In this document: one piece after another, positions 108 through 24,528 of the stretch
How positions within the stretch are numbered: the first letter of the stretch is position 1
Layout of the letters: each line of letters starts with the position of its first letter
IMG/VR virus record: IMGVR_UViG_3300021197_002025
Coordinates: 1-25,618 of that record
Source of the DNA: a virus
DNA length: 25,618 nucleotides
Direction: 5' to 3' (one strand)
Position numbers and translations under genes: made by a program
Notes under the pieces: model-generated
Told to the model about the DNA's origin: nothing
The model's database searches: none
Seen by the model: only the letters and a program-made list of their open reading frames with translations

Positions 108-119
108 TATATAAATATA
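108..119 (-). promoter_or_regulatory. Intergenic 12-mer TATATTTATATA (putative late promoter)
   Basis: The coding strand reads TATATTTATATA. It lies 36 nt upstream of the GTG-initiated gene at the left edge, with a normal Shine-Dalgarno in between. It is one of six near-identical copies, all intergenic. The promoter role is inferred from the distribution. Confidence 0.6.
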
Positions 120-131
120 TTAAAATTCCTG

Positions 132-1985
132 TTATGTTAACTCTCTATCTATTAAATTAGACTCGTCTAACAAGTCTGTACTTTCTTTTAATATAGATGG
201 TTTATTTTTAAATAATTCTATTGAATTTGCAATTTCTCTAGCTAAAGGGCTTCCACCTTTATACTTGTGCTTAATTCCTCTATCTCTATTTTTAACGTCA
301 CGCTTCATTTTTTCATTACCAAGCGGATCTCTTCCTCTAGCTCCATTGTCTGTTCCATAGTAGTCTCCTTCTACGGGTCTTCCAACGTCTGCATCTGTTT
401 TTCCACCTCTTGTTTTTCTAGTATCTCCTGAAGCTCTGAGTCTATCTCGTTTATTTTTTTCTTTTGCTTCTTCAGATACAGTAGGCTCTTTTGCAGGATC
501 TTTTCCTTCGTTTTCAATCATACTTCTTCTATATTTTTGTATAGTGTCTTCAACAACTTTTTCTCGTTCAAGTTTAACTTCTTCGTCAGACATTCCAAAT
601 ATTTTATCATATACCCAATCTTCAGAAAGCATTTGACCGCTTCTCATATCGTCAGCTAACCTGTTTTTAGAAGACCAAAGCTCTATTTTTTCTTGTTCGT
701 ATATTGTTGATGGATTTGTCAACTCTAATTTAAAGTCAACTAAGTCTTCATCAGTATATCCTTGGGTGTATAGATGCACAAGTGCTATTTTTGTTAATTC
801 AGAAGTAGCAATTCTTTGAATTCTTTCTATTGTTCTTGCAAATCTAACATCCATAGCTGCTAAGGTTGCTTTTCCATCTACTCCTTCTTCGTATCCAACA
901 AAAGCTTTTGGAACCCTAAGGGCTGCTAGCATTCTATTTTTAAGATATTCTATATCTTCTGTACCTGTCCATTCCATTCCGCCTAATGAATCTATACTAG
1001 TACCACTGTTTCCTCCTCTTGTTGGCAAGTAAAAGTCTTCCATCATGTTTTGAAGATTAAATTTAAGGTTGTAGTCTCCAGTATTTTGATCAATGTATGG
1101 AGTTTTTTTCATTCTGTTTACTACTTGTTGCATATAGTTATCAACTTCGCTTGGTGGTATATTTCCAATATCAATATTAAATACCCTTTTTTCAGGTGCT
1201 CTCATAATTCTATGAATCATCATGGCATCTTCCATAAGACTAAGCTGTTTCCATGTTTTTCTAGCGCCTTCTAATACAGATTTACCGTATGGCAAAAAGT
1301 TTGTATCACTAAGCATTCTAAAATGAGCTATCTCATAGTTTTCAAAGTAAGTTTTTGCCGTTGCAGTTTTATGGTAATTTGAACCTTGTCCTCCAAAAGT
1401 AGGGTCATGCATAAATCTAACATATTCTGGTTTTGTTGGATCTGTTCCTTCTTCTCTTACGACTTCGTAAACCGATATTGGTTGAACACCAGTCACACCA
1501 ACCTTTTCTAAAATATCCATCTTTAGATAAAAATCGCCGTATTTAACCATATTTCTTATCCATGGCCATAAATTAAATTCAATATTTAAAACATCGTAAA
1601 ATAAATTGTTGAGTATATCCTTTATCTCTTCTTTACCGGTTGTGATTTTTAATACATCTCCAAATTCGTTTTTTATTGTTGATTCATCAGAGTATATATC
1701 TAATGCTGAAGAAATTATTGAATCGCTATCCATTGACTCATACTCTGAAAACAGTTCCATTCTCATTTGGGCAAATGCATTGCTTGGGTTATAAACGCTA
1801 TTGCTATTTGTTCCAGATGTGTGTAATCTATTATATCTGTCTACTAATGAGTTAGATGCTAAGTTTCCAGACGATTGTAGTCTAGATGGATCTACCACCT
1901 TTAATTTATTATCTCCAACCTTTCTAACGACTGTAGATGTTGAAAATGCTTTTTTTAATCTTCCAAAAAATGTTTTATCTGCCAT
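132..1985 (-). CDS. gp20: Portal vertex protein, T4 gp20-like
   Basis: This is the dodecameric portal through which DNA is packaged and to which the neck attaches. At 617 aa it is longer than T4 gp20 (524 aa). Family features are the region around residues 78-101 (ELFSEYESMD..ISSALDIYSDE), APEKRVFNIDIGNIPP at 263-278, MEDFYLPTRGG at 315-325, and the GKATLAAMDVRFARTIERIQ stretch at 371-390, which matches the gp20 core pattern. The C-terminal ~130 residues (about 490-617) are highly charged and low in complexity, ending in a helix-prone tail, and account for most of the extra length. The start has a good Shine-Dalgarno (AGGGGA) 16 nt after the terminase stop, so the two are probably co-transcribed. 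T4 separates these genes by the tail sheath and tube genes, which are absent here. Confidence 0.93.
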   Translation of the reverse strand: MADKTFFGRLKKAFSTSTVVRKVGDNKLKVVDPSRLQSSGNLASNSLVDRYNRLHTSGTNSNSVYNPSNAFAQMRMELFSEYESMDSDSIISSALDIYSDESTIKNEFGDVLKITTGKEEIKDILNNLFYDVLNIEFNLWPWIRNMVKYGDFYLKMDILEKVGVTGVQPISVYEVVREEGTDPTKPEYVRFMHDPTFGGQGSNYHKTATAKTYFENYEIAHFRMLSDTNFLPYGKSVLEGARKTWKQLSLMEDAMMIHRIMRAPEKRVFNIDIGNIPPSEVDNYMQQVVNRMKKTPYIDQNTGDYNLKFNLQNMMEDFYLPTRGGNSGTSIDSLGGMEWTGTEDIEYLKNRMLAALRVPKAFVGYEEGVDGKATLAAMDVRFARTIERIQRIATSELTKIALVHLYTQGYTDEDLVDFKLELTNPSTIYEQEKIELWSSKNRLADDMRSGQMLSEDWVYDKIFGMSDEEVKLEREKVVEDTIQKYRRSMIENEGKDPAKEPTVSEEAKEKNKRDRLRASGDTRKTRGGKTDADVGRPVEGDYYGTDNGARGRDPLGNEKMKRDVKNRDRGIKHKYKGGSPLAREIANSIELFKNKPSILKESTDLLDESNLIDRELT

Positions 1986-2001
1986 AATTTTCCCCTATAA
2001 C

Positions 2002-3585
2002 CTATTTAATTAACCAGGTTAAATCTTCGTCTGAGCCGTTTATCTTTTGGCTCCATTGATTTTTATTTAAACCTGTATTAGTGTATATTCCGCCAGATGA
2101 TTTTCCAATTCTATTTATTGCTAATTTATCCAGTTCTATACCTTGTTGTTTTAATTTTAATGCAGTGTCTCTAACCCACATACCAATACTAAATGCCATT
2201 ACTAGGTCATCATTGTATCCTCTTTGGGCTTCTGCTTTACTTCCATTCCACACGAATACTCTGAGCTCTTCTAGTAATCTTTTTGACCTAATTACACACC
2301 CTTTTTCTCTTAAATAAATATCAAGTTTAGAGATTAAAAGTGGTCTGGTTTTGCTAGATGTTGTAAATCCTGGTGTCATTTGACTTCTAGATTTTAGATC
2401 ATAACCTTTTGTTAACTGAGTCGTGGCATCTGTAACTCCATCTTGTTTATATGTATAATATAAGTTTTTATAATCTCTATCAATAGCACTCTGTATTGCT
2501 CCAAAACCTACACTTGCATTTTCAATAACTAATAATGCATCGTTATATTCTGTTGCAACACCTACTAGCATGTTTCCAAAGTCTTTAGGGGTCAATTGAC
2601 CTCTATATTCTGCAACTTGAGTTACTGTTTCAACGTCTAATACGTGAAAAGTAGAGTAATCACTACCATCACCTCTAGCAACATCAGCTACTACCATGTA
2701 ATTTCTAGTATAGTCACAAGATTCCCAAATCCAATAATTTCCATCAAATCCTCTTTGTTCTTTAGGATTTTGCATTTGAGATTCTTTAAACCATTCGAGT
2801 AAGCTTCCATCAACAACACTATTACCTGAACTAATGAAATCACAATCACATTCTTGTGAAGCTAATTTTGGTCCTAATAGTTCATCTTGCTCGTTTCTCC
2901 AATCTTGATTTCTTTCTGGATGAACTGACCAGTGAAGTCTTATTGTATTAAAGCTATTTGTACCTTCTTCTGCCTTTACCCACGTTTTGTGAAAGAAATT
3001 ACCTATACCATTTGGGGTGGATAAAACAATTGCTTTACCTCCTGTTGCTAATGTTTGCTGTGCTGATGCCCATATTTCTTCAACACCTTTAATAAAAGCT
3101 GCTTCATCTATGATTAATAATGAAAGTGCTTCAGATCTACCAGCATCTCCTGAACTAGAAACTGCCTTTATCTGAGAGCCGTTTTTAAATCTAAGACTTA
3201 ATTTATTGTCTTCAACAGTAACCCCCTTTAACCAACTAGGAAGATAGTTGTGCATTTCTCTTACTTTGGTTACTAGGTTTTTTGCAACTTCTTGTTTTGT
3301 TGCAATTACAAGAACATTTTTATCTTGTTGAAATAGCATTAGCCAAAGAGAATATCCAGCTGATATTGTAGAAATACCTAATTGTCTAGATTTTAATATT
3401 ATATTATAGTCGTGGTGTTTAAATTGTTCAAGAGATCTTTCTTGAAACTGATACAAATTAAATGGAATTCTTCCGCGGGTTGGGTGTTGAATCTGACAAT
3501 ATTTTCTCATAAAGTAGACTGGGTCTTGAGCGCACTTTATGTATTCGTCTTTTATTACCTGCTTAAGGCCTTTAGTCTTCTTCAT
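2002..3585 (-). CDS. gp17: Terminase large subunit, T4 gp17-like
   Basis: This is the ATP-driven DNA packaging motor and headful nuclease. The 527-aa protein has an ATPase domain with the Walker A variant SRQLGIST (66-73), Walker B LLIIDE (156-161) and coupling motif LSTPNG (188-193). The nuclease domain follows, with MVVADVARGDGSDYS (297-311, candidate metal ligand D301), LLVIENASVGFG (351-362) and YNDDLVMAF (457-465, D459/D460). It is shorter than T4 gp17 (610 aa) but all catalytic elements are present. Its ATG at 3585 has no Shine-Dalgarno: the 12-mer TATATTTATATA ends one nucleotide before it. It leads a two-gene unit with the portal. No small terminase (gp16) is recognisable in the window. 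Confidence 0.95.
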   Translation of the reverse strand: MKKTKGLKQVIKDEYIKCAQDPVYFMRKYCQIQHPTRGRIPFNLYQFQERSLEQFKHHDYNIILKSRQLGISTISAGYSLWLMLFQQDKNVLVIATKQEVAKNLVTKVREMHNYLPSWLKGVTVEDNKLSLRFKNGSQIKAVSSSGDAGRSEALSLLIIDEAAFIKGVEEIWASAQQTLATGGKAIVLSTPNGIGNFFHKTWVKAEEGTNSFNTIRLHWSVHPERNQDWRNEQDELLGPKLASQECDCDFISSGNSVVDGSLLEWFKESQMQNPKEQRGFDGNYWIWESCDYTRNYMVVADVARGDGSDYSTFHVLDVETVTQVAEYRGQLTPKDFGNMLVGVATEYNDALLVIENASVGFGAIQSAIDRDYKNLYYTYKQDGVTDATTQLTKGYDLKSRSQMTPGFTTSSKTRPLLISKLDIYLREKGCVIRSKRLLEELRVFVWNGSKAEAQRGYNDDLVMAFSIGMWVRDTALKLKQQGIELDKLAINRIGKSSGGIYTNTGLNKNQWSQKINGSDEDLTWLIK

Positions 3586-3586
3586 A

Positions 3587-3598
3587 TATATAAATATA
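3587..3598 (-). promoter_or_regulatory. Intergenic 12-mer TATATTTATATA abutting the terminase start
   Basis: This is an exact copy of the recurrent element, in the 34-nt gap between the holin-like gene and terminase. It ends 1 nt before the terminase ATG, leaving no Shine-Dalgarno and implying a leaderless or very short leader if it is a promoter. Confidence 0.6.
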
Positions 3599-3619
3599 TT
3601 TCTAAGACAATTTTAGTAC

Positions 3620-4012: not shown

Positions 4013-4028
4013 AACTTTTTCTCCTTAT

Positions 4029-4958
4029 TTAGTATTCAAATGGAGGTGTTCCGTAATCTTTTTGTTGAATACCATACCAAGTGTTTCCAACCTGATAGTA
4101 CCACCAACCATGTTTGTTGTCTTCTATAATTTTAAACTTACCTTTTGGTAATGGTGAATCTTTTTTAGAAGCTCTTGCGATGTATTTAAGAACAGGAACA
4201 CCATCGTCAAATGTTTTATCTGTTTTTCTAGCCTTTACAGATTTTCTATTATCTGTGTTTGTTGCCATATGAAGTTTAAATGCTGGGTCATCACTAAGAA
4301 AAGACTTAAATACATCTTCGTTTATTCCTTTTTTTGAAACAGATTCATTTTGCATATTATATACTACATCTTCTTCAAAGTCATCGGCAGTAAATTTTCC
4401 GTAGTCTTTAAAAAAGCTTTTAGCATTTCTTTTTGCTATTGACTCTAATGATTTAACATAATCTTTAGCGTATCTAGTTGGAACCCCTCCTGACTTTATA
4501 GCCTGTTTTAATCCTTTGTCTAATTTTTGCATAATTTCTCCATATGGAGAAGTTGTTTTGCCTTCTTTATTTATAGACCTAGCAGCTTTTACTGCTTTTT
4601 TGTGTGCTTTACTTCCTTTTTTAGCTGGCTTTTCGCCTCTTTTTCTTTTGGCATGTATATTTGCCCAAAGGCCTTGACTTTTTTCAGTTAAATCATCTAT
4701 TGGTTCACTAGTAACCGCTTTATTAAAATCTTTTTCTGCTTGCTCTACTTTCTTGTGAAGGCTTATTAAAGATTTCTTAAAGGTTTCTTTCTTTTTAGGA
4801 TCCTTTTCAGCAACAAACTTTTTTCTAAGTTCTTGCTGCTTTAATTGTATTGATTGAAGAGCTTCGACAGCCTTTTGAAACCTTTTTGTTATTGAAGCTT
4901 CAGATAAAACAGATTCTACTTCCTCGCTTAGTATTTTTTTAAATTGTTTTATATTCAT
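4029..4958 (-). CDS. Lysine-rich protein of unknown function with GLWANIHAKRKRGE motif
   Basis: I do not recognise a function for this 309-aa protein. It starts MNIKQFKKILSEEVESVLSE, an amphipathic helix. The 801-aa protein and the kinase also begin with short helical leaders. A charged coiled-coil-like region covers residues 24-85. The basic motif GLWANIHAKRKRGEKPAKKG lies at 96-115; I recall similar LWxNIHxKRxR motifs in other phage virion-associated proteins. A lysine-rich middle follows, and the last ~55 residues are aromatic (WWYYQVGNTWYG at 285-296), suggesting a small SH3-like beta domain. The many basic residues suggest nucleic-acid or capsid-core association, which is inference. It is preceded by the ATATTTATTGTA element and is followed at 16 nt by the holin-like gene. 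Confidence 0.8.
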   Translation of the reverse strand: MNIKQFKKILSEEVESVLSEASITKRFQKAVEALQSIQLKQQELRKKFVAEKDPKKKETFKKSLISLHKKVEQAEKDFNKAVTSEPIDDLTEKSQGLWANIHAKRKRGEKPAKKGSKAHKKAVKAARSINKEGKTTSPYGEIMQKLDKGLKQAIKSGGVPTRYAKDYVKSLESIAKRNAKSFFKDYGKFTADDFEEDVVYNMQNESVSKKGINEDVFKSFLSDDPAFKLHMATNTDNRKSVKARKTDKTFDDGVPVLKYIARASKKDSPLPKGKFKIIEDNKHGWWYYQVGNTWYGIQQKDYGTPPFEY

Positions 4959-4990: not shown

Positions 4991-5003
4991 TACAATAAAT
5001 ATA
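4991..5003 (-). promoter_or_regulatory. Intergenic element TATATTTATTGTA (sister form of the 12-mer)
   Basis: The coding strand reads TATATTTATTGTA in the 48-nt gap upstream of the 309-aa gene, 32 nt before its ATG. The same 13 bases occur at 15861-15873 before the 587-aa fibre. It shares the ATATTTAT core with the six 12-mers. Confidence 0.5.
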
Positions 5004-5006
5004 GTA

Positions 5007-5610: not shown

Positions 5611-8016
5611 TTAGAAAGTCATCATACCAGCAATTTGATTTACTGGGGCAAATGCTCCTGTTAATTTATATGTGTTTCCTTTATATATAAAAACTAATCC
5701 TTCACTTGGAATTATAGTTTTAAATCCTCCAATAGCATTAATTTTTTGTAATTGTTGAGTCATTCTATTTAATTTCTTAAGGTCTCCACCTTTTCTAACA
5801 TCACTTATTGCTTTTGCTACCTGTTTTCTAACATTTTGAATTGCTTTATCTGGATTAGCTGCTAAGAATCCTTCTACGTTTTTAAGTACTTCAGCTCCTA
5901 ATTCAAAAAATAATGTTTCAAAAGGAAGCATATTATCTTTTACTTGGTTTGCATGTTTTAACTTATCAAATTCTTTTGCTTTTTTAAGTAAGTCTTCACT
6001 AGGTATAGTTTTTTTATCTAATCTAAATGACTTATCAAAAAATGCCCAACGTTTAACCAATCCAATCTTAATTGTATTATCAACACCTTTCATTTTTTTA
6101 TCAACAAAGTTTTCCCACCAGGCTTGGTGATATTCGGCAAAGGTTGATGTGTCTTTCATGTTAAACTTTTTCATAAGTTTTTTAAGTTTTCCAGTGAAAT
6201 AAGGTTTTTTTGCTGAATAGTCTTGGTGAGGTTTCATTTTAAGAATCTTAGGTCCAATTATAGAAAAGTTTTTTTGAACACTTTGATTTATTTGTGTAAT
6301 CATTCCTGCAAGAATTCTTGCTCCGTCTTGAACTGACCCTATGGCTTTACCATCTTTATATTGTAATACATTATGAAACTGTAGGTATGGTGCATCATAC
6401 GTAATCACATTAGCAGAGGCAGGAAACATTATTTCCATATTTACCCAGTTATTACCGCTATTAAATATTTTTTCTTGTTGTTTGGCATTAAGACCTCCAA
6501 TTGCTTTTGCTAGATCTTTCATTGCAAAAGTAAAAGCTTTTTCTATATTACCTCTACCTTTAAATTTTGCAGCAACGGCTTTATAATCCATTCCACCCTT
6601 TTTTAAGTCTCCAGTATTTCTAGCAGCTAACATTTTACCATTCCAGCTAATAAATAAGTTTTGACCATCTGTTTTTTCTGTTGCTGCTTTTTCTAAATCT
6701 AGATTTCCTTGAAGAGCTAGGTCAATAATATTCTTAAAATCTCCAAATGTTAGTCCTCTATCATCGAATGGATGTGACATGTGACCGTATGCTCCACCCT
6801 CAGTTAGCATTATTTGGTTAGCTAGCCATTCTCCTAAACTTTCATCTATAGAGTGTATTGATGTTGGTTTAACAACCGTTGTTTTTTGGTTTGATGGTTT
6901 TAGATTTTTTTGTTTGTCCAATGTTTTTTGTAGTTTTTTCATTTCTTTATCTTGCTTTATCGGCTCATTTACACTTTGGACTGACGAGATTTCAGCGCCT
7001 AAAAAGTTTAAAAATTCATATCCAGCAGATTGAGCTATATATTTTGACCAACTACTCCATCTAGTATAAGCGTCTCTTCCTTTTTTATCTTGAAGGTAGT
7101 TTGTTCCTGCTACTACGTTTTTTTCTCCCGTGGCTGGAATTCCAACTGGAAAATATGAAACTGCAGCGGTTGGTCCTCCAGTAAAATCTTTTTTAAATGC
7201 TGTATCATGTTGGAAAAATTCTTCTTCTCCAACTATATAATTTAAGACTTCCATTCCCATTTTTTCAGCTAAGTCTTTATTATCTGTCCGATATGATTTT
7301 TGAGTACCATAAAAATATCTTGGTCCATCGTCAACATCAGCTGATCCAGGAGCCGTTTTTGAAGCTTCACTTATTATATCCAATATATTGCTATTTTGGC
7401 AAAAGTCTTCAATTGTTTCGTTTAATTTTTCTAGCTTATTTACTATAAAGTCATAATTTTTTGTGTGGCCGAATATCCCTCTAAAAACCTTTAACTTTTC
7501 AGTCTTGCTTAATTCTTTATCTCCTAAAGCCTTTCTAATTGCAGTGCCACTCATTTCTCCATATCCTGGTACATTCATTGAAACATGAGGGGCAAGTATG
7601 AGATATGCTCCATCTTTATATCCAACCTCAGCTTTGCCTTTCCAATCTTGAAAAAACTTTCCTTTAAGTCTTCCTGCGTCTTTTGAACCTACCATAAATA
7701 CGGCAGCAGTAGTTTTAGGGTCGTATTTTTTTAATATTTCTTCTGCTTTATATGGGTTTTTTACTTTTACAACATTTTTTATTCCATGGGAATTTATTAT
7801 TTTCTTTTTTTCAACAAATGAAAATGGTGATTTTGGTAAATTTACTTTATCGCTTGTTCCAACATAAGAGTCTTTAAACTTTGACTGGAGCCACTTAAAT
7901 GTTTTTGCGTGGTGAGCTCCCATAGGTTGAAATCTTCCAGGATATATTGCAACAATAGTTTTAATATTGGTTTCCTCAAGTAAAATTTTATCTACTAAAT
8001 AGTTTCCTAAACTCAT
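5611..8016 (-). CDS. Fusion of cytidylyltransferase-like and nucleic-acid-ligase-like domains
   Basis: This 801-aa protein has at least three parts. Residues ~18-200 form a cytidylyltransferase/NMNAT-like Rossmann domain: GRFQPMGAHH (27-36) stands where the family has GRFQPxHxGH, and MSGTAIR (155-161) matches its (I/M)SxTxxR motif. The first histidine of HxGH is replaced, so catalysis is uncertain. Residues ~225-345 are an unrecognised middle domain, followed by a charged linker. Residues ~400-801 carry the order of covalent nucleotidyltransferase (ligase) motifs: KTDG (448-451, motif I lysine K448), RNTGD (466-470), NMEIMF (526-531, motif III glutamate E528), EGLVFIYK (772-779, motif IV) and K784 (motif V). 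This suggests an RNA/DNA ligase-like fold. The start codon overlaps the kinase stop as ATGA, and a Shine-Dalgarno-like AGGAAA lies inside the kinase gene, so the two are translationally coupled. Possible roles are nucleic-acid end repair or nucleotide/NAD chemistry. Confidence 0.8.
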   Translation of the reverse strand: MSLGNYLVDKILLEETNIKTIVAIYPGRFQPMGAHHAKTFKWLQSKFKDSYVGTSDKVNLPKSPFSFVEKKKIINSHGIKNVVKVKNPYKAEEILKKYDPKTTAAVFMVGSKDAGRLKGKFFQDWKGKAEVGYKDGAYLILAPHVSMNVPGYGEMSGTAIRKALGDKELSKTEKLKVFRGIFGHTKNYDFIVNKLEKLNETIEDFCQNSNILDIISEASKTAPGSADVDDGPRYFYGTQKSYRTDNKDLAEKMGMEVLNYIVGEEEFFQHDTAFKKDFTGGPTAAVSYFPVGIPATGEKNVVAGTNYLQDKKGRDAYTRWSSWSKYIAQSAGYEFLNFLGAEISSVQSVNEPIKQDKEMKKLQKTLDKQKNLKPSNQKTTVVKPTSIHSIDESLGEWLANQIMLTEGGAYGHMSHPFDDRGLTFGDFKNIIDLALQGNLDLEKAATEKTDGQNLFISWNGKMLAARNTGDLKKGGMDYKAVAAKFKGRGNIEKAFTFAMKDLAKAIGGLNAKQQEKIFNSGNNWVNMEIMFPASANVITYDAPYLQFHNVLQYKDGKAIGSVQDGARILAGMITQINQSVQKNFSIIGPKILKMKPHQDYSAKKPYFTGKLKKLMKKFNMKDTSTFAEYHQAWWENFVDKKMKGVDNTIKIGLVKRWAFFDKSFRLDKKTIPSEDLLKKAKEFDKLKHANQVKDNMLPFETLFFELGAEVLKNVEGFLAANPDKAIQNVRKQVAKAISDVRKGGDLKKLNRMTQQLQKINAIGGFKTIIPSEGLVFIYKGNTYKLTGAFAPVNQIAGMMTF

Positions 8017-8717
8017 CTTGATTTCCTAAGCTCTATTTCTTTTTTAATCCACTGTTTTGCTATATGATTCTGTACTGGTCTTGATACAAATTCTCTAGCC
8101 TTTGACTTAACAACGTCTGCAAAATCTTTATATTCTGAATTGTCGACTACCAACATATTACTAGAACCAAATAAACTTTGAAATTTACCTAAATTATTTT
8201 GTACCGCTTGCCAAGAAGATTTTACTAATTCACTTGGTAACTTTCTTTCTCTTTGTTGATTTCTTTCAAGTGCTACATCAAGGTCAGTATTTACAAAAAT
8301 CATAAAACAATCATAACCTACTTCTTGTAATCGTTTTTTCTGTTTTGCTATGTTTGGATAGTTTTTACCGGTTCCGTCTATTAGTAAACCTAGTCTTCCG
8401 TTTATATAGTTTTTTAAAGCTGCATCTCTAACTTTTTTACTTTTTTGCCTTAGTTCCATTGCTTGAGAATATTCTGACGGTTTTAATTTTGCTATGTCTT
8501 GGCTTAATCCTTTCATTTGTAAAAAAGTTTCAAAATACTTATCACTGTTAACCGACTTTAATCCCTGTGCAGAAACAAAAGGCATTTTTTCCGGCATACC
8601 AAATAGTGTGGATGCTGCATATGATTTTCCTGAACCTGGGCCTCCTGCCGTAAACACCGCTTTAAATATACCTGGGTCATATACGCCTTCGTTTAATATG
8701 TCTGCTAGTTTAATCAT
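8013..8717 (-). CDS. P-loop kinase (polynucleotide-kinase / zeta-toxin-like)
   Basis: This is a 234-aa NTP-binding protein. A perfect Walker A, GGPGSGKS, sits at 25-32 after a hydrophobic strand. VNSDKYFE (56-63) provides an acidic residue (D59) placed like the substrate-binding aspartate of zeta-type kinases. LLIDGTGKN (111-119) is the second strand/Walker B-like region, and ERNQQRERKLP (151-161) gives the arginine-rich lid seen in polynucleotide and small-molecule kinases. The fold call is firm but the phosphate acceptor is not known. It overlaps the 801-aa nucleotidyltransferase/ligase-like gene by 4 nt, so a kinase and a ligase-like enzyme are made together. Its ATG has no Shine-Dalgarno: the 12-mer ends two bases before it. 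No antitoxin-like partner is adjacent, arguing against a toxin role. Confidence 0.85.
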   Translation of the reverse strand: MIKLADILNEGVYDPGIFKAVFTAGGPGSGKSYAASTLFGMPEKMPFVSAQGLKSVNSDKYFETFLQMKGLSQDIAKLKPSEYSQAMELRQKSKKVRDAALKNYINGRLGLLIDGTGKNYPNIAKQKKRLQEVGYDCFMIFVNTDLDVALERNQQRERKLPSELVKSSWQAVQNNLGKFQSLFGSSNMLVVDNSEYKDFADVVKSKAREFVSRPVQNHIAKQWIKKEIELRKSR

Positions 8718-8719: not shown

Positions 8720-8731
8720 TATATAAATATC
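8720..8731 (-). promoter_or_regulatory. Intergenic 12-mer GATATTTATATA abutting the kinase start
   Basis: The gap between the 188-aa gene and the kinase is only 15 nt, and this element fills 12 of them. It ends 2 nt before the kinase ATG with no Shine-Dalgarno. Confidence 0.6.
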
Positions 8732-9314: not shown

Positions 9315-9491
9315 CTATTGGTTTTTTAAAATATTTATTTCAGCAATTAATTCTTCTATTTTTTCTTTTAATAAATAAACTAAATGGTGATCTCCATTAT
9401 TTTCTCTTGTTTCTGTATCATTTAGAAAATTAGATATATTTGATAAAGATCCTGATGTTATTTCCTGTGTTATTGTTTTAATATTTGCCAT
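9315..9491 (-). CDS. 58-aa coiled-coil microprotein, paralogue A
   Basis: This short gene encodes a 58-aa protein. It starts MANIKTITQEITSGSLSNIS and ends with a heptad-like helix LLKEKIEELIAEINILKNQ (41-58 region). A second copy lies at 13857-14021 (MADIKTITETIASGS ... LLKEKIDELVAEVNTLK). Both sit directly 3' of a fibre gene; here the ATG comes 3 nt after the 732-aa fibre stop. There is no close Shine-Dalgarno, so translation probably depends on coupling with the fibre. Conservation of both ends between the two copies argues strongly that it is real. The position and coiled coil suggest a fibre assembly chaperone or trimerisation factor, analogous in size and context to T4 gp57A/gp38 accessory proteins. 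No homology to these is claimed. Confidence 0.75.
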   Translation of the reverse strand: MANIKTITQEITSGSLSNISNFLNDTETRENNGDHHLVYLLKEKIEELIAEINILKNQ

Positions 9492-12283: not shown

Positions 12284-12593
12284 CTATATTCTCCGCTAAT
12301 ATTTTAGCCTTTATTTCCTTTATTAGTAGTTCAACGTCTTCTACTTTTATTTCTATATCTTTTACTTCTTTATGTTCGTCATACATTTTTATACCTTTTC
12401 TCTTAAGTATTAAACGTATTAGTTTTTTCTTTTTCTTTTCAGGTAATTTATCAACTACCTTAGATACCGATCCACCACCATCAAGTTGATCAGCAACTTC
12501 TTGAATCAGCTGAACATCATCCCAAGTATATGGATTATCATCCCACGCAAAATTTGCCGTGTTCCATTTAAATGTTGTTATATTTGGTGCCAT
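12276..12593 (-). CDS. Conserved small phage protein, function unknown
   Basis: This 105-aa protein begins MAPNITTFKWNTANFAWDDN and continues PYTWDDV. These repeated W-N/D-D elements are an N-terminal signature that I recall from small marine T4-like phage proteins. A lysine-rich helix (PEKKKKKLIRLILKRKGIK, about 51-69) and an acidic helix (70-105) follow. It heads a transcription unit: the 12-mer GATATTTATATA overlaps its ATG by one base and there is no Shine-Dalgarno. The 3' end overlaps the 192-aa gene by 8 nt, implying partnership. A minor structural or fibre assembly role is possible. No domain is recognised. Confidence 0.75.
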   Translation of the reverse strand: MAPNITTFKWNTANFAWDDNPYTWDDVQLIQEVADQLDGGGSVSKVVDKLPEKKKKKLIRLILKRKGIKMYDEHKEVKDIEIKVEDVELLIKEIKAKILAENIDV

Positions 12594-12604
12594 ATATAAA
12601 TATC
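12593..12604 (-). promoter_or_regulatory. Intergenic 12-mer GATATTTATATA overlapping a start codon
   Basis: The coding strand reads GATATTTATATA, and its last A is the first base of the ATG of the 105-aa gene. It lies in the 28-nt gap after the 222-aa gene. There is no Shine-Dalgarno for the downstream gene. Confidence 0.6.
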
Positions 12605-14022: not shown

Positions 14023-15786
14023 TTACCTCGCCACTATTGTTATATTCATTAATCCTCTTGCGTTTTTTGCAGGGGTACCTGATGTTTCAGATCCTACGCC
14101 AACAAATATCATAGATCCTTTATCTAAATTTCCAGTATAAGTTAAATCATTTGTAGCATAATTGGCGTTATTAAATGTATCTGATTGATGAGCTACTTTA
14201 GTTAACGTAATATTTGTATTACTATCATTTGATCTGTTTGCTGTATAAATTGCCAGTGAAAAATCATCACCTGTTACTGAACCACCTCCAGCTGGTCTTA
14301 AAGAACATTGTACCTCAACACCAGATATATCAAAAGGTAATATATAACCCCAGTTCATATCATCTTCAGCTATATCAAAGTTGGCTGTACTAGAAATAGC
14401 TCCTCCAACTGCTTGAGGGTCGTTCCAATTTGAGTTTTGATGTCCTAAATTTCCACCAAAGTATAATGAATTTTGAATCATTGGGTCATCGTTAATATAG
14501 AATGATGCCGCTTTTAAAATGTGCTTTGTTCCTTGGAATGCTGATCCTGTTATTGGTCCATCAACCTCTAGACTAGTTTCTGTACCTACTCCGTGTAATT
14601 CTACAAAGGCTCCAACTCCGGCTGTTATTGTGCTTGTTGCCGAGGCAGATATATTAGATCCTGCTGAAGATGTTACGTGACCATCGAACCTTGTTTTACC
14701 TGTAATTTGATGAGTATCATTTGCTGCTGAATTTCCTGCAGTAAGATCATTAGCTGTAGTAATATCTCCAGAAGTATCTACTGAAAAGGCGCCATTAGCA
14801 AGTTTAAATTCATCTGCTATTACTGTTGCGCTTGAGCTTATATCTCCTCTAACATCTAATCTAATTCCGTTAAGAGACTGGGCTGAACCCGATATAAGAA
14901 CTGTACCTGAGCTACCTATGCTTGGGTTAGATGGGTTATGATTTGGAATTAAGTTAATACCTTGACCATTTCCCATTTGAGATATATTAACGGCGCCACC
15001 ATTACCTTCAATATTTATAGCTCCAATAGTAGCCGTAAGATGATTATCTGTGCCGTCATGAAGTATTTTAAAATCAGTGGTGGCACCAGAAGATGGACCC
15101 GTTCCAAAACGAAGTTCAACATTATCTTGTATCCGTATATCATCACCAAATACAATTGGAGATGCATCAGATCCTCGAATTGCACCACCAAATGATGCAG
15201 ATAAAATTGTTCCTTCAAAACTTATATCACCACTTGCACTTATATCACCCTCTACTTGAAGAGCTTTTGTTGGGTTTTCTGTTCCTATACCTGTATTACC
15301 ATCATCGTTAAAGAATGCAAATCCAGAGTAATTATCATTACCTATTTTCATTCCAGCATTACTTATTGCTTGAATAAACGAACCATAATAACCTTGAGTT
15401 GTGTTTGTTCTTACATTTCCACCAATATGAAGTTTCTCTGTTGGGTTGGTTACGTTTATTCCTACGTCACCAGCTGTGTCAATTCTAAGCCTTTCACTAC
15501 CTTCACCTTCTATACTTAAATGATTATCATTTATAATTTCCCAGTCTGAACCACCTCTTCTTAAATGTAGTTTTGCTTGGTGAGTACCAGCGTCCTCATG
15601 TATTTTTATAGCAACGGCTGCACCATTAGCATAAACTTCAAGCTGTTCGCCAGGGCTTTGAGTTCCAATACCAACATCACCTCCAAATACATGTGTTTCT
15701 CCGTTTGCTTGAATATTACCTGAGGCGGTTAAGTGTCTTACTTCTACGGCTGATCCACTGACCAGCACTTTTTTCCAATTAGGCAT
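14023..15786 (-). CDS. Tail fibre protein (587 aa)
   Basis: The N-terminus MPNWKKVLVSGSAVEVRHLT shares its layout with the 653-aa fibre (MASWKKVIVSGSSAEFAHVS), probably the same virion docking module. The shaft includes DVGIGTQSPGEQLEVYANG, DVGINVTNPTEKLHIGGN and NTGIGTENPTKALQVEGDIS units. The C-terminal ~170 residues are non-repetitive and contain LPFDISGVEVQCSLRP, resembling the 732-aa fibre head. The protein ends in beta-rich sequence (GLMNITIVAR). No S74 autoprotease is visible. The start lies downstream of the sister promoter-like element and a 97-nt gap, with GGAG upstream. The gene heads a unit with the 54-aa microprotein, the methyltransferase and the 222-aa protein. Confidence 0.88.
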   Translation of the reverse strand: MPNWKKVLVSGSAVEVRHLTASGNIQANGETHVFGGDVGIGTQSPGEQLEVYANGAAVAIKIHEDAGTHQAKLHLRRGGSDWEIINDNHLSIEGEGSERLRIDTAGDVGINVTNPTEKLHIGGNVRTNTTQGYYGSFIQAISNAGMKIGNDNYSGFAFFNDDGNTGIGTENPTKALQVEGDISASGDISFEGTILSASFGGAIRGSDASPIVFGDDIRIQDNVELRFGTGPSSGATTDFKILHDGTDNHLTATIGAINIEGNGGAVNISQMGNGQGINLIPNHNPSNPSIGSSGTVLISGSAQSLNGIRLDVRGDISSSATVIADEFKLANGAFSVDTSGDITTANDLTAGNSAANDTHQITGKTRFDGHVTSSAGSNISASATSTITAGVGAFVELHGVGTETSLEVDGPITGSAFQGTKHILKAASFYINDDPMIQNSLYFGGNLGHQNSNWNDPQAVGGAISSTANFDIAEDDMNWGYILPFDISGVEVQCSLRPAGGGSVTGDDFSLAIYTANRSNDSNTNITLTKVAHQSDTFNNANYATNDLTYTGNLDKGSMIFVGVGSETSGTPAKNARGLMNITIVAR

Positions 15787-15883
15787 GCATTATATCTCCA
15801 ATTATGGTTGGTTACTCTTGGCGAGCCCACTTCCTTTTCAGGCCAATAATTAATACTATATACAATAAATATAATTTATAAGG
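15787..15883 (-). promoter_or_regulatory. Longest intergenic region (97 nt): putative promoter and leader of the 587-aa fibre
   Basis: This is the largest gap in the window. The sister element TATATTTATTGTA lies at 15873-15861, 74 nt before the fibre ATG, so the leader would be unusually long. The leader contains a GC-rich stretch around 15817-15842 (GGAAGTGGGCTCGCC on the coding strand), unlike its surroundings. A GGAG precedes the ATG. I see no convincing terminator hairpin and no ORF. Confidence 0.5.
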
Positions 15884-16048
15884 TTATTTATTATTGTTTG
15901 CTTCTTGTTTTTGTATTTTTTTATTTTCTTTTTCTATTTGCCTTTCTAATTTTTGAATTATAGAAGCAACAAAAAATGCATCAGAACCTTTTATTTGTGT
16001 ATTATGAATTGCGGCCATTATAAAGCCGTATTCTCTTAAATTAAACAT
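15884..16048 (-). CDS. 54-aa microprotein with C-terminal charged helix
   Basis: The protein begins MFNLREYGFIMAAIHNTQIK and ends in a K/E/Q/N-rich helix (KLERQIEKENKKIQKQEANN). It starts 2 nt after the 62-aa gene, with the Shine-Dalgarno AAAGGAG lying inside that gene's last codons, so it is real and co-translated. Its pattern (I-x5-N/T-x3-GS-x8-IIQKLE) resembles the C-terminal half of the 62-aa protein (LLELIKNSNFGG...AKLQKEY), suggesting an old duplication. It lies 3' of the 653-aa fibre. The function is unknown; a small helical fibre-assembly or regulatory role is possible. Confidence 0.75.
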   Translation of the reverse strand: MFNLREYGFIMAAIHNTQIKGSDAFFVASIIQKLERQIEKENKKIQKQEANNNK

Positions 16049-16258: not shown

Positions 16259-18220
16259 TTAACTAAATATATAAATGTCCTCAGAATCTGTATCTACAAC
16301 CATTAATCCTGCTCGTGATGCTTGATCGGCACCAAAACCAACAGGGTTTCCAGTTGGGGCTCCAGCTGATTGTGAAATTGCAGCAACATGATAATCTGCA
16401 ACAACTGCAGTTGAGTTCCAAGCTGCTTGATCTTCATATGCTAATCCCCATCTTTTTAAAGAATCATCATAAAACATAGAAGTACCAATACCAGCAGCTC
16501 CGGTTTGAACAACAATACCACCGTCTCCAGAAGTTGAACCGCTATTCATAAGTATAAACTGGTCATCTACGTTTAAGTTGGTTACTTGTAGAGATACTAA
16601 ATCTCCAGTTACAGTAAGATCACCAGTAACGGTTGCATCTCCAGTAACGGTTAAAAGACTTCCGTCAAAAGTAAGATTAGCTTCACTATTCATTGCATCT
16701 GTACCAGTTGCAGTTACGATTCTATTGTTTGCGCCGTTTGACATAAAGTCAGAAACGTCTACTGCAATTGCATTTGCAGAGACATCAAGACCAGTACCTA
16801 CGCCAACAGCTAGTGCAGAACCTCCACCACCAGTTAATCCGTTTCCTGCTACAGCGGCTGCTAAAGCATCTGCATCTACACCACCATCTTTAATACTAAT
16901 TGTTCTTGCCGCAGAACCGTTATAGGTAGTGCCTGAATTTAATTGAATTGTTGCATTGTCAACCGTTAAATTATTACTAACATTAGTTGCTGTTCCTGTT
17001 AAATCTCCAACAAAAGCGTTTGCTGTAATAGTACCACTTGCACTTATATTAAGAGAGGCTGTTATATGTGAAGCGTTAAAATCACCGTCTACAGTAAGTC
17101 TACTAAGACCGGCATCAACACCGCCTACTGTAACTAATCTACTACCATCTGTTATCTTAACTGTAGTACGACTACCATCCTCTGCAACATCACCAAAACT
17201 AAGGTCTCCGGCGTTCGAACCAGATATGATTTGTGAACCATGTGCAGAATACGTTCCTGTATTATCTAATGTACTTCCGTCAAAAGTAAGGTTAGCTTCT
17301 GCATTCATTGCATCTGTACCTGTTGCAGTTACGATTCTATTGTTAGATCCATTTGCCATAAAGTCAGAAACATCTACTGCAATTGCATTTGCAGAGACGT
17401 CAATACCTGTACCAGCTCCAACTGCTAAGGCAGATCCACCTCCACCAGTAAGTCCATTACCTGCTACTGCTGCATTTAGTTGGTCTACGTTTACACCAGC
17501 TGCTTTTATAGATATTGTTCTATCTGCTGACCCATTAAACTCAGTTCCACTATTCAATGCTAGTGATGAATTATCTACACTTAAAGTTCCTGTTGTTGAG
17601 TCAGAGCTAATTCCAGTTATACCGGATCCATCACCGACAAAGGAGCCTGATATTGTTGATCCACTGACGATATTTCCAGTTATAGTTGATTCAATATCTA
17701 AATCACCACTGGCAGTAATATTACCTGTTATATTTAATACGGAACCATCAAATGTTGCTTTTGCTTCCGCATTCATTGCGTCTGTACCTGTTGCGGTAAC
17801 AATTCTATTATTAGAACCATTTGCCATAAAGTCAGAAACGTCTACTGCAATTGCATTTGCAGAGACATCAATACCTGTACCAGCACCAACAGCAAGAGTT
17901 CTTGTTGCAGCTATTGTACCTCCTCCAGTTAAACCATCTCCTGCCGTTATTGTAACGCCACTGTGATCGATGTGCTCGTTCGCTACAAAACCACTTAAAT
18001 TATCGTGAACAATAGCACTATCATCAGTAGTTACTGTAGCGGCTGCTGATCCATTATACGTGAAATCTGCTATACCTGTACCATCTGTTAGTGCACCACC
18101 CAAGGTACCTTGTATTGAAGCTGCTGATATTGTGCCAACTACATCAAGGTTACCAGAAGAACTTACGTGAGCAAATTCTGCAGAAGAACCACTAACTATT
18201 ACTTTTTTCCATGAAGCCAT
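16259..18220 (-). CDS. Repeat-rich tail fibre protein (653 aa)
   Basis: The N-terminus MASWKKVIVSGSSAEFAHVS shares the docking module of the 587-aa fibre. The body holds three ~68-residue repeats of the form NGLTGGGGSALAVGAGTGID followed by VSANAIAVDVSDFMANG and NNRIVTATGTDAMNAEA. The second and third are extended by a preceding SVDNSSLALNSGTEFNGSAD-type segment, giving units of about 110 residues. The C-terminal ~110 residues (LQVTNLNVDDQFILMNSGS..., ending IYIFS) are non-repetitive and probably form the tip. Composition is G/A/S/T/N-rich with few K and no C. It is preceded by a 12-mer element and by AAGGG. It resembles trimeric beta-helical fibres, but its place in the tail cannot be assigned. 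Confidence 0.85.
   Translation of the reverse strand: MASWKKVIVSGSSAEFAHVSSSGNLDVVGTISAASIQGTLGGALTDGTGIADFTYNGSAAATVTTDDSAIVHDNLSGFVANEHIDHSGVTITAGDGLTGGGTIAATRTLAVGAGTGIDVSANAIAVDVSDFMANGSNNRIVTATGTDAMNAEAKATFDGSVLNITGNITASGDLDIESTITGNIVSGSTISGSFVGDGSGITGISSDSTTGTLSVDNSSLALNSGTEFNGSADRTISIKAAGVNVDQLNAAVAGNGLTGGGGSALAVGAGTGIDVSANAIAVDVSDFMANGSNNRIVTATGTDAMNAEANLTFDGSTLDNTGTYSAHGSQIISGSNAGDLSFGDVAEDGSRTTVKITDGSRLVTVGGVDAGLSRLTVDGDFNASHITASLNISASGTITANAFVGDLTGTATNVSNNLTVDNATIQLNSGTTYNGSAARTISIKDGGVDADALAAAVAGNGLTGGGGSALAVGVGTGLDVSANAIAVDVSDFMSNGANNRIVTATGTDAMNSEANLTFDGSLLTVTGDATVTGDLTVTGDLVSLQVTNLNVDDQFILMNSGSTSGDGGIVVQTGAAGIGTSMFYDDSLKRWGLAYEDQAAWNSTAVVADYHVAAISQSAGAPTGNPVGFGADQASRAGLMVVDTDSEDIYIFS
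16658..16861 (-). repeat. Copy 3 of the ~0.2-kb fibre repeat
   Basis: It encodes the third NGLTGGGG...TFDGS unit of the 653-aa fibre. It is nearly identical in DNA to copies at 17273-17474 and 17741-17946, with scattered synonymous changes. Confidence 0.8.
17273..17474 (-). repeat. Copy 2 of the ~0.2-kb fibre repeat
   Basis: This is the second unit of the 653-aa fibre. Its similarity to copy 3 extends upstream in the reading direction (about 17475-17590 against 16862-16975), so the duplicated segment was larger than 0.2 kb. Confidence 0.8.
17741..17946 (-). repeat. Copy 1 of the ~0.2-kb fibre repeat
   Basis: This is the first unit of the 653-aa fibre. The GTGIDVSANAIAVDVSDFMA core is shared with the other copies, and the flank (GGGTIAATRTLAVG) has diverged. 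Confidence 0.75.
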
Positions 18221-18252: not shown

Positions 18253-18264
18253 TATATAAATATA
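18253..18264 (-). promoter_or_regulatory. Intergenic 12-mer TATATTTATATA upstream of the 653-aa fibre
   Basis: This copy lies in the 56-nt gap after the 117-aa gene, 32 nt before the fibre ATG, with AAGGG as Shine-Dalgarno between them. Confidence 0.6.
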
Positions 18265-20389: not shown

Positions 20390-20400
20390 TTTTATCTCCT

Positions 20401-23400
20401 TTATGCTGGGTAATAATTTCCATAACTACCACTTCTATCGTATGATACCTCAAGTGTTATGTTTATGTTTTGTATACCACCTTGGTTATCCATAAATGAA
20501 TCTTGGAATTTTGCCGGAGATCCATCTGTTTTCGACTTAAATATGTTTACCTTTAGCCTATCTCCAGGATGAACCTTATGGGTACCTTTATTATATGTTC
20601 TTTCCCAAGAAACTCTGCCAAAGTAACTTTTCGTTAACGCATTAGATCCAAAAACGTCAGTTGGTAGTGTTGGACCAGTTTCACTGTATAGGTTAATTAA
20701 AGATCCACTAAAACCATGTTGTGCATGGTCAACTTGAGTTGAAACTGGAACTAATGTGTCATGTGCATATGCTGCATCTCCATCAAAACCTGTTGCATCA
20801 GTATAAAACGGTCCTGGAACACCTGAACCGGATCTAAATACACTAGCAGATACAGCTATACAACTCTCTGCCATAAAAAAGCAATGTATCATTGTATAGT
20901 CTACCTTCATTCCAGTTATACTTCCACTATGTAGTACGTTTATTCCTTCAACATACTGTCTGGAATCAGCTGCATTTGCATATTGTTGGTATATTGTGTC
21001 ATCCGATAAATGGGCCTGAGGAACATTTTGGTATAAATTCATAGCTGCAATTGCGTTTAATGTTCCTTGTTTAAAAACATATTCTTGTGTTGTTTGGAAA
21101 ACTGTTCCACCTACATCTAAGTCTCCCGATGCTGAAATATTTATTGGGGAAAAATTATCTACTTGTAGCTCGTTGGCTATTAAAGTACCACTTGAGCTTA
21201 TATCGCCGTGTACTTGTAGCTCGTTAGCTATTACAGTACCACTTGCGCTAATGTCAAGAGATGCAGTTATACTACCTATAAATTCATGGGTATCATCTCC
21301 AACATCTCCAAAAATATTAGAACCTGAAGTTTCAATTGTTGAAGAAGTAATGTGAGATGAAGTTATTGAGGTTACAGTGATGCTTTCAACATTGTTAATA
21401 CTAAAGCCTCCCATATCTAGATCTTCTGTTGCAGTGTGATCTCCAAGATTATCTGCAGAACCTCCGCCAGTTCCTCCTACTCCATAACTACCAGTTAGGT
21501 ATAAGTCACCATTTGCATCTACAACTAAAACACTATTGTCTGTAGTATCTCCTCTATCGTTTAGTCCTTCAATTCTTATTTTAGAAAGTGGAGATTCGCC
21601 ACTTTGAGAAATTTGAAGTATATGCGTGTTTACTGAAATTGAACTATTTTCATCAAAAGAATCCCCTATAAATACAACTCGTCCTTCTCCTGTTGTTGTA
21701 TTTCTAGACTGAGATATATAATTGGATGCTATAAACCAGTCTCTATCTGCTCCTAAACTTAATGCAGTTGCAGTATCTCTAAATGACATTGAAACAAGTC
21801 TTCCTAAATTATTTTCAACAACAATCATTTGAGCATCTGCTCCGGCGTCTGCTCCTGGAGCTTGAGGATAATATATAGATCCACTTGAAACCATCATACT
21901 TCCAGAAACATTTAGCTCAAATCCAAAATGATACGGAGTAAAGGGTCCAGATAAAACGTCGTCATACCCAATATATACACTACTAGGAGTAGAGTCAGCT
22001 TTTCCGTCGTATGCTACCTGTAATCCAACCTTTCCTCCAACACCTATGGCAATGGAGTTTGCGTTTCTTTCATGAATAGTAAAACTTCCGGCTGGAGCGC
22101 CATCAAAAGTTGCTCCACCTGGGTCTAAATTAACTGTGTCAGTGTATCCTATTATTGAAGAAGTTGTTGCATTATTATGGTCAAATATAACCATTGCATT
22201 TTTTTGGTTTGCTAATCCTGCCCCATTAACATCAGATGCTAAATGTAGAATTGACGAGGAATATGATTCAAGCTTTAATGTTGCGTTTCCTTCATTAGTT
22301 AATTTTTTTACATGTAAAGGAAATCCTGGTTCAGATGTTAAAAAATTACCTATACCAACAGAACCACTGTGGTATATACTTCCCGTAAGATTTGGTTGAA
22401 ATTGTGCTTGGTCTCCTTGAGTAGTAAATGGTTTAACCCAGTCAGAATCACCCATAGGTGTTGCACCAATAAATTCTCCAATACTTGCACTAGTAAAATA
22501 AGCATTAGTTGCCGTGAAGGTAAACTCATTGTCAAATTCTATGTTTGGTATATCTGCAGTATAGACTGCCTTGTTGTGTTCATCATTGTAAAATTCAAAC
22601 TTAAAATCTAAAGCATCTACTTGACCTACATTTGCTTTTGTTGTAGGGATTATCGCGTCAAAAAAGTGAGGAGTATATCCGTGTTCATAATATGGTTTAA
22701 CGGTTACGTCAAATAAAAACCATAATCCTTGTTCAATTTTAAACCTTAAATATGCAAATTCAGTTGCATCTGCTTTATAGGTAAATCGTAAAGCTGATGT
22801 TTCGTATTCATTAAAAGGATCTTCTGTAACGACTAATTCTTGATTTTCAATATCGGTTATTTCACCAATCATTTGACCAAAATCGTCTCCATCATCATTT
22901 ATTGCCGAGCCATACATGTATATTTTTAAAATTGGAGTATTAGAATTTACCCTTTGACCAAAACACTTAAATTCTACCTGGTAATATTGATCTTGCCTAT
23001 GTTCTATTGGTATGGTAGAGTCTACTAATATATGGTTAGTACCATCAAGTTGGCCAACCTCATGGGCTAAAATAGAATCACCTATTTGTAATGAATCTGG
23101 GATTGGATTATTTACATTTCCAACTAGTTGTCTAAATACCTGTAAATTTTCATTTGCAAACCCTAGTCCATCAGATGAAGAAGCAGACCAGTAATTATCG
23201 ACTGATCCACTTACTCCAAACTGTGAAAAGTCTCCTGCAGAATGCCTGGTTACCAGCGATTCAGATTGTATTAATAAGTTTTGTGAAACTACAGGATTAT
23301 CTCCAACCAAAAAGTAGTCTGTGGCTGTTTGGTCGTTTCGTATAAATGTTTTTACTCTAGTCACGTCTCCAACTAACGGTGTTAAACCATTAAAAGAAAC

Positions 23401-24495
23401 TTTTGCATATGATGTTGCAAAGTTATTACTTCCACTAGCTAATGGATTACTTCTAGAAACAGGAGACTGTGCAAAATCTAATCTAAAATTACTAGCATTA
23501 AATCTTCTATGGAATACTTCTTTTTGGTTTGCTCTACCTATTCCTTGAAAAGTAGTATGTGGACTATTTACTCTTATCCTTAATGGAGAAACAACCTCTG
23601 ATATAATTGTATTAAACGCTCCTTGATTAGTGTATTGTTGAGTGTTTTCATCTATCTCTCCAGTACCATCTCCAGTCTCTATTTCGTTATATAGTGCAGG
23701 ACCAGTAGGACTGTTAAACGCGCTTGGAAAAGGGCTTTGAGGGGTTGGAATAAAAATTGTTCCTCCAACCATATCATTTGTAAAACCTCCAAAATCTGGA
23801 GCTTCTGTTGAAACTAAATAGTATTTGTCGCCGGCTGTTTCGTACCTAACGTTTGCTGTTGTATTTACTACTCCTTCAGATCCAGTAGAACATAGTGTAA
23901 ATAAAGATCTAGAGTTTGAAGCTGAAAGCTCTGCGTTATAGTGTAATTGAAAGTATGGCCTTTTTATTTCTTCTATTGTTATATCTGGCTTTTCAAAATA
24001 TACTATTTCGTCGGTGTTTCTTCGCCTAGGATAACAATTTAATCTTTTTGTCCAGCGTATATTAAATGTTCCTCTATACCTTGGAGGAGCTGGTTCAGAA
24101 ATATCTCTTTGCCTTTCTGAGTCAAAACCTACTTTTCCTTTTGCAACACCTACAATAGAGATTCGAGCATCTCCTTCAGGTACTTCTTTTCCGATCTCTA
24201 TTGCAAATATTCTTTCGTTTCCTTCTCCTATATGGTCATACGTTCTGATTGGTATAGTATCGCCATTTGCATCTAAAACTTCTATGGCTATTTCTGAGCC
24301 AGGAACAAGATTTTGTGTACCTGTAAAAGAAATTAAATTCCGTCCGGCCGTTAATTCTCTTGGAAATCTAGTTATTCCAAAATAATCATATGAGTCTGGG
24401 GATCCATCCTCTATAAATACGGGGATCGTGTCTAATCCTCTATAATCTAAAGGTTGAAACTTTAAAGGTTCTTTAAAACGTATTACTTTTGCCAT
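20401..24495 (-). CDS. Giant tail/baseplate fibre protein (1364 aa)
   Basis: This is the largest gene in the window. Residues 1-~120 form an Ig-like, probably baseplate-docking region (MAKVIRFKEPLKFQPLDYRG; FTGTQNLVPGSEIAIEVLDA). A basic, arginine-rich segment with RWTKRLNCYPRRRN (147-160) follows, then beta-rich sequence. About residues 700-1130 are shaft-like, with SVGIGNFLTSEPGF, NISASG and TVIANELQVHGDISSSG repeats, including a 51-bp tandem DNA duplication. The last ~200 residues are non-repetitive and end in a beta domain (HPGDRLKVNIFKS...). Unlike the smaller fibres it has a long unique N-terminal half, so it may bridge the baseplate and distal fibres, similar in placement to a proximal fibre; this is inference. 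It has a good Shine-Dalgarno (TTAGGAGT) and a 12-mer 21 nt upstream, and it heads the unit with the 585- and 117-aa genes. Confidence 0.85.
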   Translation of the reverse strand: MAKVIRFKEPLKFQPLDYRGLDTIPVFIEDGSPDSYDYFGITRFPRELTAGRNLISFTGTQNLVPGSEIAIEVLDANGDTIPIRTYDHIGEGNERIFAIEIGKEVPEGDARISIVGVAKGKVGFDSERQRDISEPAPPRYRGTFNIRWTKRLNCYPRRRNTDEIVYFEKPDITIEEIKRPYFQLHYNAELSASNSRSLFTLCSTGSEGVVNTTANVRYETAGDKYYLVSTEAPDFGGFTNDMVGGTIFIPTPQSPFPSAFNSPTGPALYNEIETGDGTGEIDENTQQYTNQGAFNTIISEVVSPLRIRVNSPHTTFQGIGRANQKEVFHRRFNASNFRLDFAQSPVSRSNPLASGSNNFATSYAKVSFNGLTPLVGDVTRVKTFIRNDQTATDYFLVGDNPVVSQNLLIQSESLVTRHSAGDFSQFGVSGSVDNYWSASSSDGLGFANENLQVFRQLVGNVNNPIPDSLQIGDSILAHEVGQLDGTNHILVDSTIPIEHRQDQYYQVEFKCFGQRVNSNTPILKIYMYGSAINDDGDDFGQMIGEITDIENQELVVTEDPFNEYETSALRFTYKADATEFAYLRFKIEQGLWFLFDVTVKPYYEHGYTPHFFDAIIPTTKANVGQVDALDFKFEFYNDEHNKAVYTADIPNIEFDNEFTFTATNAYFTSASIGEFIGATPMGDSDWVKPFTTQGDQAQFQPNLTGSIYHSGSVGIGNFLTSEPGFPLHVKKLTNEGNATLKLESYSSSILHLASDVNGAGLANQKNAMVIFDHNNATTSSIIGYTDTVNLDPGGATFDGAPAGSFTIHERNANSIAIGVGGKVGLQVAYDGKADSTPSSVYIGYDDVLSGPFTPYHFGFELNVSGSMMVSSGSIYYPQAPGADAGADAQMIVVENNLGRLVSMSFRDTATALSLGADRDWFIASNYISQSRNTTTGEGRVVFIGDSFDENSSISVNTHILQISQSGESPLSKIRIEGLNDRGDTTDNSVLVVDANGDLYLTGSYGVGGTGGGSADNLGDHTATEDLDMGGFSINNVESITVTSITSSHITSSTIETSGSNIFGDVGDDTHEFIGSITASLDISASGTVIANELQVHGDISSSGTLIANELQVDNFSPINISASGDLDVGGTVFQTTQEYVFKQGTLNAIAAMNLYQNVPQAHLSDDTIYQQYANAADSRQYVEGINVLHSGSITGMKVDYTMIHCFFMAESCIAVSASVFRSGSGVPGPFYTDATGFDGDAAYAHDTLVPVSTQVDHAQHGFSGSLINLYSETGPTLPTDVFGSNALTKSYFGRVSWERTYNKGTHKVHPGDRLKVNIFKSKTDGSPAKFQDSFMDNQGGIQNINITLEVSYDRSGSYGNYYPA
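21161..21262 (-). repeat. 51-bp tandem duplication in the 1364-aa gene
   Basis: Two adjacent 51-bp units (21161-21211 and 21212-21262) each encode a 17-residue step of the form ISSSGTLIANELQVHGD. They begin with ACTTGTAGCTCGTT on the plus strand and differ at only a few bases. They correspond to about residues 1078-1112. Confidence 0.85.
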
Positions 24496-24516
24496 TGAGT
24501 ACTCCTAACTATTCAA

Positions 24517-24528
24517 TATATAAATATC
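24517..24528 (-). promoter_or_regulatory. Intergenic 12-mer GATATTTATATA upstream of the 1364-aa gene
   Basis: This copy lies in the 47-nt gap after the gp46-like gene, 21 nt before the ATG, followed by TTAGGAGT as Shine-Dalgarno. The spacing fits a promoter with a short leader. Confidence 0.62.

Follow-up and report, generated by a model that had tools for sequence, protein, structure and literature searches.

The virus record IMGVR_UViG_3300021197_002025 (IMG/VR), analysed over its entire 25,618 bp and hereafter called the window, carries eight copies of a short element at its gene boundaries, six of them as a 12-mer and two as a sister 13-mer. We put a probability of roughly 0.87 on the reading that this element serves a broad, little-studied group of T4-like phages as late promoter, within a divergent T4-type system that has a diverged sigma factor of its own. 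Its working part would be an octamer, K-ATATTTA (with NATATTTAT as the extended core), which resembles a -10 box and is read in the direction of the genes; no fixed -35/-33 box goes with it at the late copies. Most likely, the group's own gp55-like sigma on the host RNA polymerase opens the DNA at the octamer, and transcription would start a few bases past it, with some late mRNAs beginning on the AUG or a few bases from it and others carrying a leader with a Shine-Dalgarno (SD) site. The sequence itself, its orientation, constraint and conservation, its place before late genes and the conserved sigma-like protein of the relatives are observed; from these we infer which sigma reads the box, where transcription starts, that it is late and that translation can be leaderless.

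The initial annotation had listed the eight copies and suggested that they divide the genes into transcription units as late promoters would, a suggestion that our analysis supports. All eight were found where they had been placed, exclusively on the minus (coding) strand, and dinucleotide shuffles give an expectation of 0.01 matches for the 12-mer and likewise for the sister form. With small open reading frames (ORFs) counted as genes, exactly one copy lies in every gap longer than 20 nt (97, 59, 56, 48, 47, 34 and 28 nt; the second of these had been given as 60 nt and measures 59 nt by the present gene calls), and the sole further copy occupies the 15-nt gap upstream of the kinase. Seven copies are intergenic, as had been claimed for all eight; the last base of the copy at 12593..12604 also serves as the A in the start codon ATG of the following gene. 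On the sense strand of the window, the core ATATTTAT occurs 8 times in 506 intergenic bp versus 5 times in 25,112 coding bp (Fisher p = 3e-11), and the copies are thus not scattered through genes; such scatter is what the initial annotation had named as evidence against its idea.

Three of the copies, all on the minus strand like the other five, lie next to a start codon. In the TATATTTATATA copy at 3587..3598 the core octamer (TATATTTA, 3591-3598) ends 5 nt before the ATG of the T4 gp17-type terminase large subunit (2002..3585, minus strand), the best-conserved target gene and our anchor for comparison; this copy has no SD site and is kept in most relatives. The cores of the GATATTTATATA copies at 8720..8731 (core 8724-8731) and 12593..12604 (core 12597-12604) end 6 nt before the ATG of a kinase-like gene (8013-8717), again with no SD site, and 3 nt before the ATG of gene 12276-12593, respectively. 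Leaders with SD-like sites follow four further copies: TATATTTATATA at 108..119 (core 112-119), with a long leader and an AAGGAG site before the GTG at 72 of a gene running off the window (MGKNIKHSKIKNTG...); TATATTTATATA at 18253..18264 (core 18257-18264), with a purine-rich site before the fibre-like gene 16259-18220; GATATTTATATA at 24517..24528 (core 24521-24528), with a GGAG site before the 1364-aa gene 20401-24495; and the sister form TATATTTATTGTA at 15861..15873 (core 15866-15873), with a leader of about 75 nt and a GGAG site before the fibre-like gene 14023-15786. The other sister copy, TATATTTATTGTA at 4991..5003 (core 4996-5003), serves gene 4029-4958.

Because the window is the entire record, the genome-wide test of copy placement was run in relatives instead. 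The window terminase matches 75 viral loci, nearly all complete ones at 59-100% identity; among isolates, the closest terminases are those of Microcystis phage Mel-JY01 (58%) and Flavobacterium phage immuto (NC_055915; 55%). Both isolates and three contigs, G001 (171 kb), G002 (67 kb) and G003 (80 kb), were read whole. The strict 12-mer was counted 140 times across the 75 loci, each time in coding orientation. This direction had puzzled the initial annotation, in which the coding strand appeared to show a T4 late promoter backwards; the puzzle was a register error, as the middle of the element (TATTTATA) had been aligned to the reverse complement of T4 TATAAATA. The first eight bases, KATATTTA, which the sister form shares, fit better: they are identical to TATAAATA at 6/8 positions in the sense direction, with AA replaced by TT, and the variable first base is common to the element, T4 TATAAATA and cyanophage NATAAATA.

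A substitution map of the intergenic DNA of the window and the five large relatives defines the core as ATATTTAT (111 sense, 10 antisense). Nearly every single substitution abolishes the sense bias; a final G (20:3, as in the immuto early promoters) and an initial C (16:4) are partial exceptions. Sense to antisense counts of NATATTTAT in the group are 7:0, 33:4, 14:0, 15:1, 20:1 and 21:4, and in Mel-JY01 all 11 intergenic copies of ATATTTATA are sense; one of these lies on the minus strand, as does the gene that it precedes. As a control, the late regions of T4 and S-RIM8 show sense NATAAATA at 8:0 and 7:0 and no sense NATATTTAT; conversely, sense NATAAATA is not enriched in the present group, whose sense octamer, KATATTTA, is neither TATAAATA nor NATAAATA. 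Neither octamer is present in the 50 kb of RM378 that were examined. Terminators directly upstream of copies and reading the same way were found at 15 sites versus 2 in a mirrored control; as an automatic scan places terminators near a minority of copies only, they support the direction of the element and are not a general feature of it. No conserved upstream (-35) box was found at the late copies in G001, immuto or Mel-JY01; a TTG precedes 2/8 late-type copies in the window and 6/21 in immuto, at no fixed position.

The genes behind the element are consistent with late expression. In most of about 60 loci ATATTTATATATATG adjoins the terminase ATG while the preceding sequence is variable, and in two phages whose terminases are 55% identical the core stands in orthologous places before late genes (terminase, sheath, tube, baseplate hub). 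The core in immuto precedes the terminase, a scaffold-like gene, structural proteins, tail sheath, tail tube, baseplate hub, GroES and others, and nine targets are orthologous between immuto and G001: gp117, gp107, terminase, scaffold-like gp067, tail sheath, tail tube, baseplate hub, GroES and gp182. Its copies in immuto number 13 in the structural half (37 gaps), 7 in the first 60 kb (36 gaps) and 0 between 60 and 78 kb (28 gaps); for a second motif, ATATTTAGGTA, the corresponding counts are 0, 1 and 11.

The relatives also encode a candidate for the sigma factor. PHROG models for gp55 found a single weak match, immuto gp118 (phrog_234, E = 0.008), which has orthologues in G001, G002, G003 and Mel-JY01 and therefore defines a family present in all five large relatives (L094:28174-28872 for gp118; L083:1999-2682, L088:1035-1820, L091:6301-7143 and L100:8764-9534); viral contigs yield over 430 matches to it. 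When the family profile was run against several hundred phage proteins, gp55 proteins were the only non-orthologues above threshold (E = 0.002 for T4 gp55; best, 1.8e-6 for L229), and in the alignment KGKAFSYF of the family pairs with KxxNPFAYxTQ of gp55. An AlphaFold2 model (pLDDT 78) is closest to region 2 of sigma-E and to phage sigma factors, with target TM-scores of 0.54-0.60. Scanned member by member against Pfam and PHROG, the family shows only weak sigma-70 region 2 and AT-hook matches, and a profile search of PDB sequences returned nothing. From sequence comparison, the family is likely to be a distant homologue of gp55. A copy of NATATTTAT lies 5-12 nt past the sigma stop codon in 39/80 sigma loci, and in immuto and G001 this copy opens the baseplate block. 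Two parts of the protein are not seen in T4 gp55, namely an AT-hook-like RGRPRK at the N-terminus (73/85 sequences) and, at the C-terminus, an additional helical domain; a model of this domain by itself (pLDDT 87) has no PDB match, and the domain is therefore not called region 4.

Spacing to the start codon falls into two classes. For strict copies, the distance from core end to start codon is either 3-9 nt or at least 18 nt with none between (full span 3-96 nt), a tally to which orthologues of a few genes contribute most; a looser core adds some cases of 10-17 nt across the genomes, most of them in immuto, where SD sites are scarcely used, and in Mel-JY01. SD sites precede 1/21 short-spaced genes versus 38/65 of those at 18-60 nt (p = 8e-6). 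This fits transcripts that start at or just before the AUG at short-spaced copies, longer spacings leaving room for an SD site, and it suggests that some late mRNAs may be near-leaderless. Alternatively, an element occupying the SD position would displace the SD site too. Transcription starts at the 6th nucleotide in T4 (PMC1524935) and at the 5th in Bacteroidota, and 5.5% of the mRNAs of a Flavobacterium are leaderless (PMC9723704).

The closest known systems are T4 TATAAATA with gp55 and cyanophage NATAAATA, which likewise use a short -10-like octamer with a variable first base and no fixed upstream box. In T4 the late box lies at -13 to -6, its first base varies and an upstream box is not needed (PMC1524935); the variable first base is also described for cyanophages (PMC2984593) and several T4 relatives (PMC1524935). 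As in T4, the copies precede head, tail, packaging and baseplate genes and the relatives encode a candidate gp55-like sigma. Unlike in T4, the central AA has become TT (KATATTTA), a conserved T is added after the octamer, no clamp homologue was detected in the relatives, and the sigma is strongly diverged and longer. A late motif that diverged along with gp55 is known from the T4-like phage Aeh1 (CTAAATA; PMC1524935), although the substitution there differs and Aeh1 is much closer to T4. Literature searches on this late motif, Mel-JY01 and immuto promoters found no description of such a late promoter. With the octamer altered at its centre and the layout kept, sigma-promoter pairing becomes comparable across T4-like lineages, and the element offers a simple rule for locating late transcription units in widespread uncultured T4-like phages.

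Could the host's own sigma read the element with no phage factor? The Bacteroidota sigma-A promoter has TTTG/TTG at -33 and TAnnTTTG at -7 (PMC7366714, PMC9723704), and TATATTTA fits this -7 box at all fixed bases but the last, which is A and not G. Moreover, the second motif of immuto (presumed early promoter, also written TATATTTAGG) has a host-type layout: all 16 copies of TTG...TATATTTAGGTA (often ...GGTATCAATAATTAAAA) carry the TTG at one fixed upstream distance, mostly before small genes at 61-76 kb (record positions about 60955-76215 of L094). From this position and layout we infer that they are early promoters, with the same TATATTTA core as the late ones. Since early and late classes share this core, the upstream box separates them, and the late copies do not have it. 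Besides lacking the TTG box, the late core is also used in Mel-JY01, whose recorded source is a cyanobacterium, and in phages that, unlike immuto, often have SD sites at their genes; a conserved sigma-like protein is found in every large relative. Together these make recognition by an unmodified host sigma very unlikely. A further intergenic repeat was observed in G001 (TTTTATTGTCAA-N8-9-AGTTATATTA-like; L078, L080, L083; at 43275, 47158, 47571, 85400 and 139179), in which the TTG is nearer the TATATT box than in the immuto promoters.

The element could instead be a set of antisense T4-type late promoters, since the plus strand at the copies does read TATAAATA, the usual octamer of gp55-type sigmas, and transcription from it would run back into the upstream genes. 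We regard this as extremely improbable and rejected it: the two positions 5' of TATTTAT are under the same constraint as the others, although NATAAATA would have no need of them; the terminators upstream of the copies read in the gene direction; the copies adjoin start codons with ordered spacing and follow the direction of the genes; and true T4-type phages have NATAAATA on the sense strand. Least probable of all is a signal in RNA at gene boundaries, for translation initiation, processing or termination, for although the copies lie between stop and start codons and some right at the ATG, the identical sequence is found at distances of 3 to 96 nt from the start codon, terminators stand upstream of the element and are not formed by it, genes within the same blocks have ordinary SD sites and no element, and a related core precedes immuto early genes with a promoter-like box at fixed spacing.

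Several points weigh against the late promoter reading. The 3-nt class (one gene family, eight copies) would require a start 4 nt past the core, closer than in T4 or in Bacteroidota. The seven immuto copies in the first 60 kb, together with six G001 copies that lie outside the structural genes in an apparent early region behind a common upstream block, show that the core by itself does not mark structural genes exclusively. For the sigma-like family, the hhalign probability against gp55 is low, no PDB match of the model is individually significant, and a reverse profile search fails to recover the family, so that homology with gp55 is likely, not proven. The initial annotation had asked for gp55 homologues; a distant gp55-like sigma exists in the relatives, and the window itself has no such gene, the sigma gene of its phage lying outside the sequenced fragment. 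As to the six G001 copies, the block reads TTTTTTCCCAA...TAGT before the core (64266, 117795, 118339, 125127, 126515 and 130699; L079, L081, L082), and they are possibly a separate promoter class with its own activator.

T4 late transcription is tied to replication via the sliding clamp, its activator, and also has a co-activator, gp33, a small protein that evolves fast. No match to phrog_223, PF02916 or PF02767 was found for a gp45/DnaN clamp in G001, G002, G003, immuto or Mel-JY01, although a diverged clamp could escape these models, so that independence of the clamp is only a possibility. The polymerases of immuto are PolA-type, those of G001 and Mel-JY01 PolB, and Mel-JY01 encodes a clamp loader. 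Between the PolB and clamp-loader genes of Mel-JY01 lies WWT39363 (L098:25755-26507), a 250-aa protein with no Pfam match, which could be an unannotated diverged sliding clamp. We consider it rather unlikely, yet worth stating, that the gp55-like sigma anchors itself to DNA through its AT-hook-like N-terminus and C-terminal domain and would drive clamp-free late transcription at least in PolA-type relatives such as immuto, with several mRNAs starting at or near the AUG; if true, this would break the T4 rule of clamp-coupled late transcription. The group is thus a natural test of late transcription with no detectable clamp and with near-leaderless mRNAs, and the isolated pair of Flavobacterium sp. 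LMO8 and phage immuto makes such testing feasible.

In the remainder of the window, the gp20-type portal protein gene (132..1985, minus strand) has no copy of its own in front and would be read on from the terminase unit. SD-like sites precede 12/16 window genes that lack the element versus 10/204 immuto genes, which suggests from these sites that the hosts of the two phages may differ in translation signals; a flavobacterial host for the window was considered and not concluded, as its SD use is unlike that of immuto. Finally, three small ORFs of 54-58 codons each lie among the fibre-related genes (9315-9491, 13857-14021 and 15884-16048), of which the first two are clearly alike (MANIKTITQEITSGS, MADIKTITETIASGS).

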